From: Haloarchaeobius salinus
Lineage (GTDB): Archaea > Halobacteriota > Halobacteria > Halobacteriales > Natrialbaceae
DNA: 64,000 nucleotides
NCBI RefSeq assembly: GCF_024464185.1
Contig: NZ_JANHAU010000001.1
Location: 186,001-250,000 of the forward strand
Direction of reading: 5' to 3'
Made by a program: the position numbers and the translations under genes. The notes under the pieces were generated by a model. It did no database searches, was not told the origin of the DNA, and was given only the letters and a program-made list of their open reading frames with translations. Shown here one piece after another: positions 13,872-21,703 of this stretch. Positions within the stretch are counted from its first letter, which is position 1; each line of letters starts with the position of its first letter.

Positions 13872-14747
13872 ATGAGCGCCGAGAAGGACATCAGCCTCGA
13901 CGAGAAGCGGGTCTACGACGGCGACGAGCGCAAGGCGACGCTGTACGTGGCCGCCGGTGTCGGCTGCGTCGCGGTCGACGTGGTGGACGAGCGCGTCGGC
14001 GGCTTCGAGCTCGCGGCGCGCGGGACGGCACGGGACGTGGCGGCCGGTGACGACGTGGTGGCGGTAGCGACGGACGAGGGCGTGCTGGTCGGCAGGGTCG
14101 GCGCGGGCGGGGAGGACACCCACGTCGACGCCTTTGAGGGGACGGGCCACGGCGCGGCGGTCGCCGTCTCGGTGGTCGACGGACCCGAGATTCTCGCGGC
14201 GAGCCCCGGCGGCGACCTCTCGCGGCTCGCTGTCGACGGGGACGGCGACTGGACCGACTGCGGCTCCGTCGAGGGCGAGGTCCGCGCGCTCTCGGGCGAC
14301 CTCTGTGCCGCCGCCGACGGCGTCTACCGGCTCGACGGCGAGCCCACCCACGTCGGCCTCGACGACGCCCGGGACGTGAGCGCGACCGGCACCCCGCGAG
14401 CCGCCACCGCCGACGGGCTCTACCGCCTCGGCAACGGCTGGCTGGACGAGCTGGCCGGCGACGCGACGGTGGTGGCCAGCGACGGCGGCGACACCGGTAC
14501 CGAGGACGCCGACGAGCCCGAACGTGCCCACGCCGTCGTCGACGACGAACTGGCCGCACTCTCGGCCGGCGAGTGGGTCGCCTACCCCGATCAGCCCGAG
14601 GGAGGGGTCGTCGGAGTCGCCTACGACCGGACGACGTACCTCGTGACCGAGGAAGGACGGGTGTTCGCGGCGGCCGGCGATGGCTGGCGCTCGCAGTCCC
14701 TCGGCGTGCCGGACGTGGCAGGTGTCGCGGCTGTCGGGCCGAACTGA
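13872..14747 (+). CDS. Predicted beta-propeller-like haloarchaeal protein
   Basis: A 291-residue protein made of repeated short strand units (VAAGVGCVAVDVVDE, DVVAVATDEGVLVGRVG, LYRLGNGWLDEL, TYLVTEEGRVFAA), the pattern of a small beta-propeller. No signal peptide or membrane segment is present, so it is probably cytoplasmic. It lies 89 bp before prs in the same direction; this pairing with PRPP synthetase looks familiar to me from other haloarchaea, but I cannot confirm it here. No catalytic residues are recognised. Confidence 0.8.
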   Translation: MSAEKDISLDEKRVYDGDERKATLYVAAGVGCVAVDVVDERVGGFELAARGTARDVAAGDDVVAVATDEGVLVGRVGAGGEDTHVDAFEGTGHGAAVAVSVVDGPEILAASPGGDLSRLAVDGDGDWTDCGSVEGEVRALSGDLCAAADGVYRLDGEPTHVGLDDARDVSATGTPRAATADGLYRLGNGWLDELAGDATVVASDGGDTGTEDADEPERAHAVVDDELAALSAGEWVAYPDQPEGGVVGVAYDRTTYLVTEEGRVFAAAGDGWRSQSLGVPDVAGVAAVGPN

Positions 14748-14836: not shown

Positions 14837-15691
14837 ATGATACTCCCAGGCTCGGCCTCCCAGTCGCTGGCGGCCGAACTCGCGGCCGAACTCGGCGAGC
14901 CCATCGCGCCCGTCGAGTACGAGCGGTTCCCCGACGGGGAGCTGCTCGTCCGCATCGGCGACGTGTCGCCCGAGCGTGCAATCGTGGTCGCCTCGACGGC
15001 CACGAGCGACGCGTTCGTCGAACTGCTCCAGCTCCAGGACGCCGCCCGCGAAGCCGGCGCGAGCGAGGTCGTCACCGTGCTGCCGTACATGGGCTACGCG
15101 CGCCAGGACGAGGCGTTCACCCCCGGCGAACCGGTCTCCTCGCGGGCCGTCGCACGGGCCATCTCGTCCGGCGCGGACCGGGTGCTGACGGTCAACCCGC
15201 ACGAGGAGGGGGTCTGTGCGTTCTTCGACCCGCCCGCGGTCGCGCTCGACGCCGCGCCGCGGCTGGCCGAACCGCTGCCCGACGACCTGACGGAGCCGCT
15301 GTTCCTCGCGCCGGACGAGGGGGCCTGCGACCTCGCCGGGTCGGTCCGGGACGCCTACGGCCGCGGCGAGACGGACTACTTCGAGAAGGTCCGCCGGTCG
15401 GGCACCGATGTCGAGGTCACGCCCAGCGACGCCGGCGTGGCCGGCCGTGACGTGGTCGTCGTCGACGACATCGTCGCCACCGGGTCGACGATGAGCGAGT
15501 CCATCGGCGTGCTGAACGAGCGCGATGCGGCCCGGGTGTACGTCACGACGGTCCACCCGCTGCTCGCGCGGAACGCCCCGACGAAGCTCGCCCGCGCCGG
15601 CGTCGCGGCCGTCTACGGCACCGACACGCTCGAACGCCCGGTCAGCGCGGTCTCCGTGGCACCGGTTGTCGCGACCGAACTATCGGAATAA
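14837..15691 (+). CDS. prs: Ribose-phosphate pyrophosphokinase (PRPP synthetase)
   Basis: Makes PRPP from ribose-5-phosphate and ATP for histidine, purine and pyrimidine synthesis. The 284-residue protein shows YERFPDGELLVRI (ATP loop), VLPYMGYARQDEAF, TVNPHEE, FLAPDEGA and the PRPP-binding loop VVVVDDIVATGSTM. The start is the ATG giving MILPGSASQ, typical of archaeal Prs, with GAATTAGG near 14808-14815 as TATA candidate. It uses the product of RpiA, encoded at 25.4-26.1 kb. Confidence 0.96.
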   Translation: MILPGSASQSLAAELAAELGEPIAPVEYERFPDGELLVRIGDVSPERAIVVASTATSDAFVELLQLQDAAREAGASEVVTVLPYMGYARQDEAFTPGEPVSSRAVARAISSGADRVLTVNPHEEGVCAFFDPPAVALDAAPRLAEPLPDDLTEPLFLAPDEGACDLAGSVRDAYGRGETDYFEKVRRSGTDVEVTPSDAGVAGRDVVVVDDIVATGSTMSESIGVLNERDAARVYVTTVHPLLARNAPTKLARAGVAAVYGTDTLERPVSAVSVAPVVATELSE

Positions 15692-15745: not shown

Positions 15746-15763
15746 CGGGGCGGTGGTGTGGCC

Positions 15764-16300
15764 ATGCACGGGATACTACACAAATCACTGAAGGGGTACG
15801 TCGGGGAGCACGTGCCGGGAACGACCTGGGACGAGGTACTGGAGGCGGCGGGCATCGAGCCGAAGCTCTACCTCCCGGTGTCGCGGTACCCGGACGAGGA
15901 GTTCACCGACGCGATCACGGTCGTCGCCGAGCAGACGGGCACCTCGGAGGCGGTCGTCCAGCGCAACGTGGGCGTCTACCTCGCGCCGGAGCTGCTCAAC
16001 ACGTTCAAGGCACACGTCAAGCGTGGCTGGGGCACGGCGGAGGTCATCGCCAACCTCGAGGCCATCTACCGGCAGATCGAGACCGGCGACGACGAGGCCG
16101 CACTCCCGTCCGTCTCGACCGACCGCATCAGCGAGGACACGTACATCGTCCAGTACCAGTCCGAGCGGCGGCTCTGTGACCTCGCGAAGGGCATCATCGA
16201 GGGTATCGCCGACGACTTCGACGACGAGGTCACCATCTCCGAGGACGCCTGCATGCACGACGGCGACGGGCACTGCGAGCTGACCGTCGAGTTCGCGTAG
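15764..16300 (+). CDS. H-NOX-like (heme NO-binding domain family) protein with Tyr at the proximal position
   Basis: A 178-residue protein starting MHGILHKSLKGYVGE, matching the M-x-G start of H-NOX gas-sensing domains; GTG at 15758 would add two residues. Counting from this Met, Y131-S133-R135 (YQSER) falls exactly where H-NOX proteins have the YxSxR heme-propionate motif. The proximal heme ligand, normally His102, is Tyr (NLEAIYRQI). The C-terminus (ACMHDGDGHCELTVEF) resembles the cysteine-containing end of V4R domains. No signalling domain is fused and no kinase or cyclase is adjacent. It may bind heme differently or not at all. Confidence 0.85.
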   Translation: MHGILHKSLKGYVGEHVPGTTWDEVLEAAGIEPKLYLPVSRYPDEEFTDAITVVAEQTGTSEAVVQRNVGVYLAPELLNTFKAHVKRGWGTAEVIANLEAIYRQIETGDDEAALPSVSTDRISEDTYIVQYQSERRLCDLAKGIIEGIADDFDDEVTISEDACMHDGDGHCELTVEFA

Positions 16301-16322: not shown

Positions 16323-18440
16323 TCACTGTCGCCGGTGCAGTCCGATTCCCGCCAGGAGACCGACCAGCGCCGCCACCGCTCCGGTGACACCGAAGCCCGG
16401 CATCGGCAACTCGCCGCTCCCTCCACCGCCGTCACCGGTCGCGCCGTCCTCCGCGTCGCCGTCACCGGCCGTCCCGGCCGTCGTCGCCGGCTCGACGGCG
16501 GTGACTGTCACCTGCTCGCCGCCGATGCGGACGACGTGCTCGCCGGCCTCGCTGATGGTCACCCTCCCGGTGTACGTGAGCCGGCTCCGGGGCGGGAGCC
16601 GGACGGTGTCGGTGTGGCTCTCCTCGCCGTCGAGCGACAGCGAGACGTCGCCCGCGGCCGGCCAGGCCGCCTCGTTGTCGACGGTCGCCCGGACGGTGAA
16701 CGCCTCGCCGACGGTCACCGACTCGGGAGCCTCGATGCTCGTCACCCGCGGCGTCGCCGGCTCGCGCACGGTCACGGTCAGCTCGCGGTTGGCGACGCGC
16801 ACGTCGTAGGTGCCCGCCTCGTCGAACGTCCGTTCGAACGCGAGCGTCTCGGTCTCGCCGGGGCCGAGCTCGCCTGACTCCGTCGCCTCGACAGAGCCGT
16901 CGACGACGAGCTGCGTCTCGTAGGTCCCGTCGCCGTCGCCGACGTTCTCCACGGTGGCACCGATCTCGAGCGTCTCCCCGACCGCCAGCGTCGGCGACAT
17001 GTTGACCGTCGTGTTCCGGTACGGACCCGCGACCGTCGGCGAGCCGTCGGCCAGCATGTACGCGAACGAGGCGGGCACCGGCCCGAACAGCTCCGCGTGG
17101 GTCTCGCGCGACCATGGCTCGGGTGCCTCGGACCCGGTCGTGTACCGGTCGGCGTACGAGCGCACGTCCGACCCCGACACCGCCTCGACCGCGGCCAGGA
17201 TGTCGCTGTTGTCGACGTTGCTCTCCTGGTCATTCAGCCGGCGCAGCACCCGCTGGAACGTCGCTTCGCCGTCGGTCGCCGTCCGGAGTTCGCGGTCGAT
17301 GCCCCCGGTGACGAGCGCGCCCTTGAGGTAGTTCGCGCTGTTGCTCCAGGTCGCCGGCTCGGCGAGTACCGCCGTCGACTGCGGATCCGCCGTCCCGCGT
17401 TCGAGCTTCTCGCGGAACGCGTCGAAGCCGATGTGGCCCTGCTCGTAGGCCAGCAGCGCCGCGTAGTAGTCCGCCGACGCCTCGGTCAGCCAGCGGCCCG
17501 ACCGGTCCGTGCGGAACTCCTGTCTCGTGTGGACGTACTCGTGCAGCCAGACGTTGTTCGCCCGGTCGAGCCGTGCGTCCGCGACGACCCACGCGTCCGT
17601 GTCGCCGTACTGGAGCCCGGCCGAGGACCAGTCGACGGTCCGCGGTGCGGCGATGACGAGCGCCGTCTCGTCGCGCTGGCCCACCCGGAGCCGTTCGCTC
17701 GCGTTCGCGAGGCTGGCCAGCACGGCCTCGGGCGATTCGCGCATCTCCGCCGCGTCGGGCACGGCGAGCGTGATCTCCTGGCCGTCGGCGGTCTCGCTGT
17801 AGGTCGTCATCGGGCCGAGGTAGGCCATGTAGCCGCCGGTCGTCCCCTCACCGGCGACCGTCACTTCCCGTTCGAATCGGAGGGAACCTTCCCAGTACCC
17901 ACTGGCATCCACACCCATGCTGGGTGCTCGCACGAGTGCCCAGTCGCCCGTATCGGCGAAGGCGTACTCCGCCACCTGCGCGTCGGCGCTCGTGGCACCC
18001 AGTCCCTCGGCGAGTGCCGCCCGCCCGCCCATGTCGCTCGTCTCGTTCGCGTCGTAGGTGAACGTCACCGAGCCGCCGGACCCGTCGCCCGTCCAGACGT
18101 ACCGGCCGCCGTCGCGCTCGAAGTTCTCGGTCGACTGCACGTCGGCGTTGGACTGCAACTGCACGCCGAGCTCGGTCACCTCCTCGGGGATGTCGAAGCT
18201 GACCACCGTCCGTATCTCGCCGGGCCGGTCCGGCGTCAGGTGGAGCGTGAGCGTCCGCGATATCGTCGGGCCGGCCGTCTCCGCCGCCGCGTGGACGGTT
18301 TCGTTCGACGCGATCGCGTCCGATGCCGACCTGGAGGGGTCGAGCGTCGCCGCGTCGGACGTCTCCGACACCGGCGTCGCGGCGGGCGCGGCGACGAGCG
18401 AGACGAGCAGGACGGTGAGCAGCGCGACCCGACGGTCCAT
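16323..18440 (-). CDS. Secreted gluzincin-type metallopeptidase with CARDB-like domains and PGF-CTERM
   Basis: A 705-residue exported protein. An N-terminal Sec signal (RRVALLTVLLVSLVAAPAA) is followed by a beta-rich region, then the zinc motif HEYVH near residue 300 and a downstream TEASADYYA that fits the third zinc ligand of M1/M61-type gluzincins. Residues about 480-660 contain two CARDB/Ig-like repeats (VGETLEIGATVENVGDG; VGEAFTVRATVDNEA). After a Gly/Asp/Ser linker it ends MPGFG, a hydrophobic helix and HRRQ, the PGF-CTERM signal processed by archaeosortase A with lipid attachment. It is predicted to be a cell-surface protease with unknown substrate. Confidence 0.9.
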   Translation of the reverse strand: MDRRVALLTVLLVSLVAAPAATPVSETSDAATLDPSRSASDAIASNETVHAAAETAGPTISRTLTLHLTPDRPGEIRTVVSFDIPEEVTELGVQLQSNADVQSTENFERDGGRYVWTGDGSGGSVTFTYDANETSDMGGRAALAEGLGATSADAQVAEYAFADTGDWALVRAPSMGVDASGYWEGSLRFEREVTVAGEGTTGGYMAYLGPMTTYSETADGQEITLAVPDAAEMRESPEAVLASLANASERLRVGQRDETALVIAAPRTVDWSSAGLQYGDTDAWVVADARLDRANNVWLHEYVHTRQEFRTDRSGRWLTEASADYYAALLAYEQGHIGFDAFREKLERGTADPQSTAVLAEPATWSNSANYLKGALVTGGIDRELRTATDGEATFQRVLRRLNDQESNVDNSDILAAVEAVSGSDVRSYADRYTTGSEAPEPWSRETHAELFGPVPASFAYMLADGSPTVAGPYRNTTVNMSPTLAVGETLEIGATVENVGDGDGTYETQLVVDGSVEATESGELGPGETETLAFERTFDEAGTYDVRVANRELTVTVREPATPRVTSIEAPESVTVGEAFTVRATVDNEAAWPAAGDVSLSLDGEESHTDTVRLPPRSRLTYTGRVTISEAGEHVVRIGGEQVTVTAVEPATTAGTAGDGDAEDGATGDGGGGSGELPMPGFGVTGAVAALVGLLAGIGLHRRQ

Positions 18441-18487: not shown

Positions 18488-21400
18488 TCAGTCGTCCGCG
18501 GTCGCCTCGGCGACGGGTTCGACGGCGAGCGTCATCGTGACGCCCTCGACCGCCCACTCCTTGCGGTGGCCGTCGTCGACGCTTCCGAACTCGGCACGGG
18601 TCTCCTCGGCGATGAGGCCCTCGTGGCGGCGCACGAGGTCGGCGACGCGCTCGTCTTCGACGTCGACCTCGAGGCGGATCTCGGCGTCGATGTCGAGTTC
18701 GAGGTCCTTGCGCATCTCCTGGACGCGGCGGACGACCTCGCGGGCGTAGCCCTCGCTCTCGATGTCCTCGGTGAGCGTCGCGTCGACGTAGACGACGCCG
18801 CGCTCGTCGCCGGCCACGTCGAACCGGCTGCCGGTGACGCCCTCGGGCGTCTCGCTGACGAACTCGACCATCGACTCCTCCAGGTCGGGTTCGCCGACGG
18901 CTTCCCGGAGCGCGTCGAGGTCAGGCGCGTCGATGCGGGCCTCGTTGAGCGCGTTCATGACCTCGGGTGCGCGGTCGCCGAAGGCCGGGCCGAGCTCGCC
19001 CATGTCGGCGCGGGCGGCGTAGGCGAGTTCGGCCCACTCCGTCTCGGGCGCGACGAGCTCGATCTCGCGCGAGTTCAGTCGGTCGGCGAGCAGGTCCCGG
19101 TGACGCTCGACGGCCTCGTAGGCGCGCTCGTCGTCGGGGACGACCACGACGCGCTGGACGGGCCAGCGGAGCTTCCGGTCGGCCTGCTGGCGGGCGTTCG
19201 AGCCGGCCTCCTCGACCGCGCGGAGCAGCTCCACGTCGGTCTCGAGCTGCTCGTCGGCCCAGAACTCGTCGGGCTCGGGCCAGTCGCACATGTGGACGGT
19301 GTCGTGGCCGTCGTCGCCGGTCAGCGCGTTGTAGATGCGGTCGCTGACGAACGGCGCGTACGGCGCGAGCAGCTTCACGACGTCGTTGAGGACGGCGTAG
19401 AAGGTGGCGTACGCGGCCGTCTTCGACGCGCTGTCCTCCTCGTCCCACATCCGCTCGCGGACGACCTGGATGTAGAACCGGGAGACGTCCTCGACGACGA
19501 ACGAGAGCAGCGCGTCGAGCGCGCGGTCGGGGCGGCGGTGCTCCAGCCACTGCTCGCTCATCTCCGCCTTGACGGACTGGAGCCGGGCGAGCACCCACTC
19601 GTCGACGAGCTCGGTGTCGGCGTCGGTGACGTCGACGTCGTCGGGGGAGAACCCGTCCATGCGCATGTACGGGAGCGGGAACCGGAACACGTTCCAGAGG
19701 ATGTTCAGGTCCCGGGTCATGTTCTCCATCTCGTCCCACGAGAAGCGCATGTCCTCCTCCTGGGGGTTGCGCGAGAGGAGGAACAGGCGCATCGGGTCGA
19801 CGCCGTACTCGTCGATGACCTCCTTCGGGTCGACGAGGATGCCCTTGGACTTGGACATCGTGCGGCCGTCGGGCATGAGCGCCCAGCCGTGCATCAGCAC
19901 CTCCTCGTAGGGGATCTCGCCGAGGGCGGCGCTGCCCATGCCGAGCTGGGACCAGAACCAGCCGCGGGTCTGGTCGTGTGCCTCCATGATGAGGTCGGCG
20001 GGCCACAGCTCCTCGAAGTCGTCCGTCTCGCTCGGGTAGTCGAGGGTGCCCCACGACGCGACCGAGGAGTCGAGCCACACGTCGAACACGTCGGGGACGC
20101 GGGTGGCCTCGGCACCGCAGCCGCCGCAGTCCATCGTGAGGTCGTCGACCGTCGGCTTGTGCAGGTCGACCTCGTTCGGGTCGACGTCCTGATGGACGCG
20201 GTCGGCGAGCTCCTCGCGCGTGCCGACGACGTTCAGGTGGTCGCACCCGTCGTCGTCGCAGGTCCAGATGGGGATGGGGATACCCCAGTAGCGCTGTCGG
20301 GAGACGTTCCAGTCCGGCGAGCCCTCGACGAAGTCGCGGAACCGGTTGTCCCGGGCGTCGGGCGGGTGCCACTCGCTGTCCTCGATGTTCTCGAGGAGTT
20401 CGTCCTTGATGTCCGAGACGGTGATGAACCACTGGTCGGTGACGAGGCGGACGATGTCGGTGTCACAGCGCCAGCACTTCCCCTCGCCCTCGACCAGGTA
20501 GTCCGGGTCGTGGGCGAGCAGGAGCCCCTTCTCGTCGAGGTCCGCGATGACGTTCTCGTTGGCGTCGCGGACGAACTGCCCGGCGTACGTCCCGCCAAGC
20601 TCGGTGTAGCGGCCGTCGCTGCCGACCGGGCAGAATATCTCCAGGCCGAGCTCGCTGCCGCGCTCGAAGTCCTCCTCACCGTGGCCGGGCGCGGAGTGCA
20701 CCATCCCGGACTTGTCGTCGGCGTCGGCGTACTCGGCGGTGTACACCTGCCCCGTGCCCTCGCCCTGTGGGTGCTCGGGCACCTCCTCGGGCAGCGGGTA
20801 CTCGTACTCCATGCCGACGAGGTCGTCGCTGTCGAGCTCGTCGAGGACCTCGTAGTCGTCGTAGCGCCCGGCCTTCAGGACGGTCTCGACCTGACTGGCG
20901 GAGACGTACAGCACGTCCGTCTCGCCGTCGCGTTCCGCGCGGACCTTCGCGTACTCGGCACCGTCCTCGACGGCGACGAACGTGTTCGCGGGGATGGTCC
21001 ACGGGGTCGTCGTCCAGATGACGAGGCTGCCCTCCTCACCGACCAGTGGGAACTGCACGTAGATGGCGGGCTTGGTCACGTCGTGGCGCTCGACCTCGTT
21101 GTTCGCGATGGCGGTCTCGCAGCGCGGGCACTGGTTGATGGAGCGCTGTCCCTGCTCGACGAGGCCGCGGTCGTGGGCCTGGTCGAAGCCCCACCAGGCG
21201 GCCTCCATGTACTCCGGGGTGACCGTCCTGTACGGGTTCTCCCAGTCCATCCAGACGCCGAAGGACTGGAAGTCGGACTGCAGGCCCTCGAGCTGCTCGT
21301 TCGCGAACTCCTTGCACGCCTCGATGAAGGCGTCCTCGCCGTACTCCTCGATGTCCTTCTTGTTCTCGAAGCCGAGTTGCTCCTCGACCTTCGTCTCGAT

Positions 21401-21679
21401 GGGCAGCCCGTGCATGTCGTAGCCGGGCCGGTCGGTCACGTCGTAGCCCTGCATCCGGTAGAAGCGGATGAAGGCGTCCTTGAGGGACTTGTTCCACGTC
21501 GTCCCCATGTGCGCCGCACCGGAGGTGTACGGCGGGCCGTCCACGAAGAAGAATCGCTCACCGTCGGCCCGGTGCTCCTTCGTCTGCTCGTAGGCGTCGA
21601 CGTCGTCCCAGTACGAGAACATCCCGTCCTCGACCGCGTCCGGGTCGTACTGGTCCGACACCTCCCCGAATCGTTCCAT
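18488..21679 (-). CDS. ileS: Isoleucyl-tRNA synthetase
   Basis: Charges tRNA-Ile. The class I signatures are GAAHMGT (HIGH-type, following PPYTS) and TMSKSKG. The editing (CP1) domain lies between them, with TTTPWTIPAN; the anticodon-binding and C-terminal domains complete about 1063 residues. I prefer the Met at 21679 (MERFGEVSDQYDP) because TTTAAT at 21704-21712 lies at leaderless distance from it. The upstream Met at 21703 would add eight residues and put the TATA box next to the start codon. It is a single gene, convergent with no neighbour. Confidence 0.96.
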   Translation of the reverse strand: MERFGEVSDQYDPDAVEDGMFSYWDDVDAYEQTKEHRADGERFFFVDGPPYTSGAAHMGTTWNKSLKDAFIRFYRMQGYDVTDRPGYDMHGLPIETKVEEQLGFENKKDIEEYGEDAFIEACKEFANEQLEGLQSDFQSFGVWMDWENPYRTVTPEYMEAAWWGFDQAHDRGLVEQGQRSINQCPRCETAIANNEVERHDVTKPAIYVQFPLVGEEGSLVIWTTTPWTIPANTFVAVEDGAEYAKVRAERDGETDVLYVSASQVETVLKAGRYDDYEVLDELDSDDLVGMEYEYPLPEEVPEHPQGEGTGQVYTAEYADADDKSGMVHSAPGHGEEDFERGSELGLEIFCPVGSDGRYTELGGTYAGQFVRDANENVIADLDEKGLLLAHDPDYLVEGEGKCWRCDTDIVRLVTDQWFITVSDIKDELLENIEDSEWHPPDARDNRFRDFVEGSPDWNVSRQRYWGIPIPIWTCDDDGCDHLNVVGTREELADRVHQDVDPNEVDLHKPTVDDLTMDCGGCGAEATRVPDVFDVWLDSSVASWGTLDYPSETDDFEELWPADLIMEAHDQTRGWFWSQLGMGSAALGEIPYEEVLMHGWALMPDGRTMSKSKGILVDPKEVIDEYGVDPMRLFLLSRNPQEEDMRFSWDEMENMTRDLNILWNVFRFPLPYMRMDGFSPDDVDVTDADTELVDEWVLARLQSVKAEMSEQWLEHRRPDRALDALLSFVVEDVSRFYIQVVRERMWDEEDSASKTAAYATFYAVLNDVVKLLAPYAPFVSDRIYNALTGDDGHDTVHMCDWPEPDEFWADEQLETDVELLRAVEEAGSNARQQADRKLRWPVQRVVVVPDDERAYEAVERHRDLLADRLNSREIELVAPETEWAELAYAARADMGELGPAFGDRAPEVMNALNEARIDAPDLDALREAVGEPDLEESMVEFVSETPEGVTGSRFDVAGDERGVVYVDATLTEDIESEGYAREVVRRVQEMRKDLELDIDAEIRLEVDVEDERVADLVRRHEGLIAEETRAEFGSVDDGHRKEWAVEGVTMTLAVEPVAEATADD

Positions 21680-21703
21680 GTCGGAGGTGTCTCGCTCCGA
21701 CAT

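Follow-up and report, generated by a model that had tools for sequence, protein, structure and literature searches.

A histidine-less H-NOX lineage of haloarchaea that retains the zinc-site cysteines and may sense redox state independently of heme

The stretch of Haloarchaeobius salinus DNA analyzed in this work (64,000 nucleotides, hereafter the window) encodes a stand-alone H-NOX protein in which the proximal histidine, the heme ligand of the characterized members of this family, is replaced by a tyrosine. The protein belongs to a set of haloarchaeal paralogues that has lost this histidine across the whole lineage, conserves the three cysteines of the H-NOX zinc site in most of its members, and is encoded beside the prs gene. 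Given that the heme-holding histidine is replaced lineage-wide and the zinc-cysteine site is kept, the protein is probably a sensor of a signal other than nitric oxide, and most likely it does not sense NO through a His-ligated heme. Our best explanation, to which we give an even chance, is that this His-less paralogue has no NO sensing of that kind and acts as a zinc-thiol redox sensor that does not depend on heme. What is at stake is whether H-NOX truly signals via its zinc-cysteine site independently of heme; a 2022 review considered that it would be extremely challenging to tell heme-free and heme-independent mechanisms apart in vivo (PMC8738867). A natural lineage without the heme ligand but with the zinc site allows heme-independent signalling to be tested in archaea, where the genomes that also carry a heme-type paralogue offer an internal control.

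The reading frame opens with an ATG at position 15764 (MHGILHKSLK...), and direct translation yields 178 residues; an alternative GTG start at 15758 would lengthen the protein by no more than two residues, and the coordinates of Table 1 stand. The HNOB profile (PF07700) matches the protein along positions 1-162 of its 163 (E=1.6e-26, 93.6 bits against a cut-off of 25.5), and a phmmer search of the PDB aligned query residues 1-177 with the H-NOX protein of Shewanella oneidensis (So; E=3e-15). The V4R profile (PF02830) also matches, on residues 122-176 only (34.1 bits against a cut-off of 31, E=2.8e-8), but this match is overlapped by the far stronger HNOB match (93.6 versus 34.1 bits), and the protein is therefore filed under HNOB. 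Membership in the V4R or MsvR families instead of H-NOX was ruled out by profile scores much weaker than that of HNOB. The AlphaFold2 model, generated with 30 haloarchaeal sequences as input, shows the H-NOX fold (pLDDT 90.1, pTM 0.87), and every top Foldseek match is an H-NOX protein, the best one being that of Shewanella (4u9b, TM 0.90, 2.2 A). The assignment to H-NOX that had been made from the letters of the DNA is upheld by these searches. The gene is the only HNOB gene in this 3.85 Mb genome; named orthologues from Haloarchaeobius are 89% identical to its product, and dN/dS within the genus (0.21-0.42) denotes purifying selection, which argues that the gene is not a pseudogene.

Table 1. 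Features of the H-NOX gene of the window and of its surroundings (positions are those of the window; So, S. oneidensis H-NOX)
Feature	Position	Strand	Basis
prs, ribose-phosphate pyrophosphokinase, upstream neighbour of the His-less gene	14837..15691	+	Pfam PF13793, 5.4e-24
Possible archaeal TATA box, TTTATAA	15704..15710	+	Read in the sequence
Stand-alone 178-aa H-NOX (HNOB) protein, His-less haloarchaeal set	15764..16300	+	Translation, Pfam, phmmer, tree, AlphaFold2, Foldseek
His6, diagnostic of the His-less set	15779..15781	+	17/17 basal, 51/54 derived, 0/44 His set
Tyr102 (codon TAC), proximal heme-ligand position (So His103)	16067..16069	+	HMMER alignment; Tyr in 17/17 basal proteins
YxSxR heme-propionate motif: Tyr131 (16154-16156), Ser133 (16160-16162), Arg135 (16166-16168)	16154..16168	+	Sequence, alignment
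Cys138, first putative zinc ligand (So Cys139)	16175..16177	+	Alignment
Glu160, putative fourth ligand of zinc (equivalent to So His161; Vibrio has Gln here, MopR-type V4R sensors Glu)	16241..16243	+	Alignment for the position, inference for the ligand (PMC7108781, PMC10715001)
Cys163, putative zinc ligand (So Cys164)	16250..16252	+	Alignment
Cys171, putative zinc ligand (So Cys172)	16274..16276	+	Alignment
CARDB-domain secreted protein, conserved convergent downstream neighbour	16323..18437	-	Pfam, locus survey
ileS, beyond the CARDB-domain gene	18488-21703	-	Locus survey

In the HMMER alignment Tyr102 stands opposite So His103, and Tyr131, Ser133 and Arg135 stand opposite Tyr132, Ser134 and Arg136. 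The window protein thus lacks the proximal histidine of the heme-binding, NO/O2-sensing H-NOX proteins and keeps the YxSxR propionate motif, exactly as the sequence-only reading had stated, and its count of the residues agrees with the direct translation. That reading had also called for a structure prediction, and a model with a different histidine in the proximal pocket would have refuted it. The only histidines of the protein are residues 2, 6, 16, 84, 165 and 170, so that none lies between residues 84 and 165, and the predicted helix that bears Tyr102 (residues 98-108) carries no alternative proximal histidine. A sequencing error at this codon was excluded, since tyrosine is also present in 16 other proteins of the basal grade described below, including those of the congeners L053, L055 and L061. 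The hinge glycines Gly70 and Gly143 are kept. O2-sensing H-NOX proteins have a distal-pocket tyrosine (Tt Tyr140), and residue 140 of the window protein, in a register that comes from sequence numbering alone, is a leucine.

A survey of 391 Halobacteria genomes detected HNOB in 85 of them; 119 candidate frames were collected, and the tree was built with 117 rows, including So H-NOX. In this tree, 44 haloarchaeal proteins with His102 group together (the His set), and all of them have the YxSxR motif and the three zinc-site cysteines; 71 others are devoid of His102. The latter include a basal grade of 17 proteins, to which the window protein belongs, and a derived branch of 54 proteins (support 100/99), in which position 102 is occupied by Tyr (23), Ala (10), Val (8), Thr (8), Arg (2) or other residues present once each. 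The branch that splits the His and the His-less sets has a modest support (71/44); nevertheless, His6 and the location beside prs agree with it independently, and for this reason we favor a single origin of the His-less set. The His-set proteins show 31-37% identity to the window protein. Among the 82 genomes represented in the tree, the two sets occur together in 26, the His set alone in 11 and the His-less set alone in 45; in the genus of the window, three genomes carry both, and the Tyr form is the only one in the window genome and in two others. Three cases deserve a separate mention: a highly divergent H-NOX-like frame (L115, genome G043) that has Phe as the proximal residue, reads FxSxT at the motif and sits on a very long branch, and that was left out of the set counts; an H-NOX-like gene broken across two reading frames, apparently a decaying copy (L114, genome G052); and a haloarchaeal-type His H-NOX in a contig titled as a Deltaproteobacteria MAG (L161), probably a mis-binned haloarchaeal contig.

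The two sets also differ in their genomic location. The prs gene lies next to the His-less gene, upstream and in the same orientation, in 68/71 loci (15/17 in the basal grade and 53/54 in the derived branch), and in 0/41 His-set loci; six of the derived loci were scored as 'down' by the script and were read as upstream given that the H-NOX open frame extends back into prs. On the other side, the CARDB-domain gene and ileS are found in most loci. The gene for an HVO_0234-like beta-propeller protein (PF23366, 6.8e-75; 13872-14747, + strand in the window) is part of the same conserved block as prs. In contrast, a gene encoding an MCP transducer (PF00015) is directly downstream of the His-type gene in 26/41 loci, sometimes with a 4-base overlap. 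No conserved signalling neighbour and no partner was found for the His-less gene among the surveyed loci. The MCP genes near L040 and L054 were excluded as partners, since they adjoin a lipoprotein gene, lie 1.5-3.5 kb away and are unpaired with the H-NOX gene.

To describe constraint site by site, parsimony changes were counted on the tree. In the His set (tree length 11.4) there are no changes at the heme-related positions 102, 115, 131, 133 and 135, nor at the zinc cysteines 138, 163 and 171. In the basal Tyr grade (tree length 4.9, mean of 3.5 changes per site), 36 positions are invariant, among them Tyr102, Gly70, Gly143 and all the zinc cysteines (Cys138, Cys163 and Cys171); Arg135 changed four times (to Lys, Leu, Asn and His), Pro115 twice, and Tyr131 once (to Phe), so that the heme-propionate motif accumulates five changes. 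The exact YxSxR motif is present in 10/17 proteins of this grade and in 19/54 of the derived branch. In the derived branch (tree length 11.6, mean of 8.8 changes per site), position 102 changed 14 times, the cysteines 3-4 times, and Tyr131, Arg135 and Pro115 did not change. Within the His-less set, then, the axial-ligand position is constant only in the basal grade, and it is just there that the propionate motif is relaxed. This pattern is not that of one simple heme site and speaks against classical heme sensing; it is compatible with Tyr ligation in the basal grade or with another pocket ligand in the derived branch. Some derived proteins (e.g. L064, L072) have two extra residues between Arg135 and Cys138 (THREQRYC type) and, along with them, a Ser133 to Thr change, two traits that are absent from the basal grade and the His set.

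The carboxyl end of the protein was compared with the zinc site of S. oneidensis H-NOX, whose ligands are Cys139, His161, Cys164 and Cys172 (PMC7108781). The three cysteines are found in the window protein at the equivalent places, as they are in 17/17 basal and 44/44 His-set proteins, and the fourth place is occupied by Glu160 rather than by His or Gln. Bacteria have His or Gln at this place, and the haloarchaeal proteins of the His set and the basal grade mostly have Glu. Glu160 is plausible as a zinc ligand because the MopR-type V4R sensors hold a structural zinc with three Cys and one Glu (PMC10715001); one of the neighbouring histidines (165 or 170) could possibly be the fourth ligand instead. 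The suggestion that a V4R-like cysteine end serves another ligand was therefore not sustained, given that this end aligns with the zinc site of So H-NOX with Glu160 as the putative fourth residue. Elsewhere in the phylum, archaeal full-length H-NOX proteins have the His and YxSxR and none of the cysteines; together with the His-less sets that keep the cysteines, this indicates that the heme and the zinc sites are separable in both directions. Cys138 was lost in 9/54 derived proteins, and the losses of cysteines in a few derived sub-lineages imply that some members can do without the zinc site, a point that weighs against the zinc-redox reading. In nine derived proteins (L059, L075, L077, L090, L094, L097, L045, L060 and L091) the zinc cysteines are partly or wholly gone, so some derived members would have neither a heme ligand nor an intact zinc site.

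In the mechanism that we propose, Cys138, Cys163 and Cys171 would hold zinc together with Glu160 or a nearby His; oxidants would turn the zinc-site cysteines into disulfides, and the resulting shift would be relayed by the helix beginning at Cys138 and by the glycine hinge (Gly70, Gly143) to the face of the protein that may meet a partner encoded elsewhere. We infer the zinc binding, the absence of heme, the redox response and the partner by analogy with better known proteins. In the heme-free form of Vibrio cholerae H-NOX, oxidation of the zinc site has been modelled to move the hinge region, and the oxidized protein inhibits its partner kinase (PMC7108781). In Caulobacter, oxidation of the zinc-bound cysteines activates H-NOX, which then inhibits the kinase, but the NO complex has no such inhibitory effect (PMC12329717). 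The alpha subunit of soluble guanylate cyclase (sGC) includes a heme-free pseudo-H-NOX domain, which in the human protein is devoid of the proximal His (PMC8196705).

Among the alternatives, it is conceivable, albeit rather unlikely, that the old heme pocket binds another small molecule (a porphyrin without iron ligation, a lipid or an aromatic compound) as in the V4R/MopR sensors, zinc being only structural. The V4R match points in this direction, as does the pocket of the MopR-type sensors, which binds phenol next to a structural Cys3Glu zinc (PMC10715001), and the window protein has no N-terminal plug of the sGC alpha type, since it starts at the canonical M1. The constancy of Tyr131, Arg135 and Pro115 in a derived branch that has no axial ligand would be consistent with a pocket ligand bearing a carboxylate and counts against the zinc-redox reading, as does the variable fourth-ligand place of that branch (Glu, Lys, Arg). 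However, no ligand or regulated gene has been identified, and the resemblance to MopR at the profile level does not reach significance (E=0.8).

It is also unlikely that Tyr102 is the axial ligand of a ferric heme, in which case the basal grade would be an Fe(III)-favouring heme or redox sensor that receives a second input from the zinc site, and the derived branch would later have lost the Tyr ligation. Tyr102, unchanged in the 17 basal proteins along a tree length of 4.9, is constrained there and may serve a function, for instance as a ligand of ferric heme, and the YxSxR motif is intact in the window protein and three congeners. Tyrosine-ligated heme occurs in other folds, for instance in a Sec14-like protein, whose ligand is reportedly a Tyr. 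The heme described for that protein is penta-coordinate and ferric (PMC7462610). Against this idea, 7/17 basal proteins have a relaxed propionate motif, among them two of the genus of the window in which residue 135 is Lys, and position 102 is free to vary in the derived branch. The question of whether Tyr is fixed among the haloarchaeal homologues has then a divided answer: it is in the basal grade, and it is not in the derived branch. Of the two outcomes foreseen in the sequence-only reading, a Tyr-ligated heme or a heme-free protein, the first, although unlikely, would fit the constancy of Tyr102, and heme independence is favored because the derived branch changes position 102 repeatedly and the basal propionate motif is relaxed.

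Finally, it is improbable that we are dealing with a degenerate domain that has a structural or adaptor role and no sensing of its own, as the protein's stand-alone nature, the lack of a conserved signalling neighbour, the decay of the heme motif and its patchy presence (71/391 genomes) might suggest, given the purifying selection, the invariant basal positions that include all the zinc cysteines, and a location conserved across families.

The zinc-thiol reading can be placed among the known systems. The window protein resembles the H-NOX of S. oneidensis, V. cholerae and Caulobacter in its fold, full-length alignment, YxSxR motif, glycine hinge and the three zinc cysteines; in contrast, those proteins have a proximal His and heme, His or Gln at the fourth zinc position, and a histidine kinase or cyclase as a partner, whereas the window gene has no adjacent partner. 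It shares the absence of the proximal His with the sGC alpha pseudo-H-NOX (human alpha, PMC8196705), which is eukaryotic, fused to a cyclase chain, and has its pocket plugged by an N-terminal extension. In 598 bacterial H-NOX proteins of groups 1-4 the proximal His is absolutely conserved (PMC7108781), but fewer than 10% of the group 5 proteins (Paracoccus denitrificans type) have it; these mostly show Pro at this place and no conserved Cys (PMC8738867), unlike the window protein with its Tyr and conserved Cys3 site. The V4R sensors (MopR, PoxR) and MsvR/MetOD1 belong to the same fold superfamily and have the Cys3Glu make-up of the zinc site, and their profiles match the C-terminal part of the window protein, which, unlike them, has a complete H-NOX N-terminal half. 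The haloarchaeal His-type proteins have the zinc cysteines in common with it, but their His102 and YxSxR are invariant and their genes often adjoin an MCP transducer gene instead of prs. The loss of the His was thus already known from sGC alpha and bacterial group 5; a His-less group that retains the zinc site was not described in the literature searched (open-access full text), where no paper on haloarchaeal H-NOX was found either.

A broader scenario, which we regard as speculative and rather improbable, is a natural separation of function that began with one His to Tyr change. The lineage founded in this way would have left His-ligated NO sensing behind, possibly by way of a Tyr-ligated ferric heme that Haloarchaeobius would still have, and would have become a heme-free sensor of the zinc-redox or pocket-ligand kind in Natrinema and its relatives, whereas the His paralogue would have kept its connection with chemotaxis in some of these cells.

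A link of the His paralogue with denitrification was considered and discarded as uninformative, since nirK (TIGR02376) is present in 25/37 genomes with this paralogue versus 27/43 without it (Fisher p=0.81). Some His-type genes occur as a tandem pair (L002, L004 and L027), which in L004 and L027 lies upstream of a chemotaxis-type gene. In one haloarchaeal genus, the His-type H-NOX gene and an MCP-like gene are adjoined by a gene encoding a truncated hemoglobin (Bac_globin, 2.8e-24), located at position -1 on the opposite strand in L026 (956-1318), L024, L019 and L029, an arrangement that suggests a cluster for NO sensing and detoxification.
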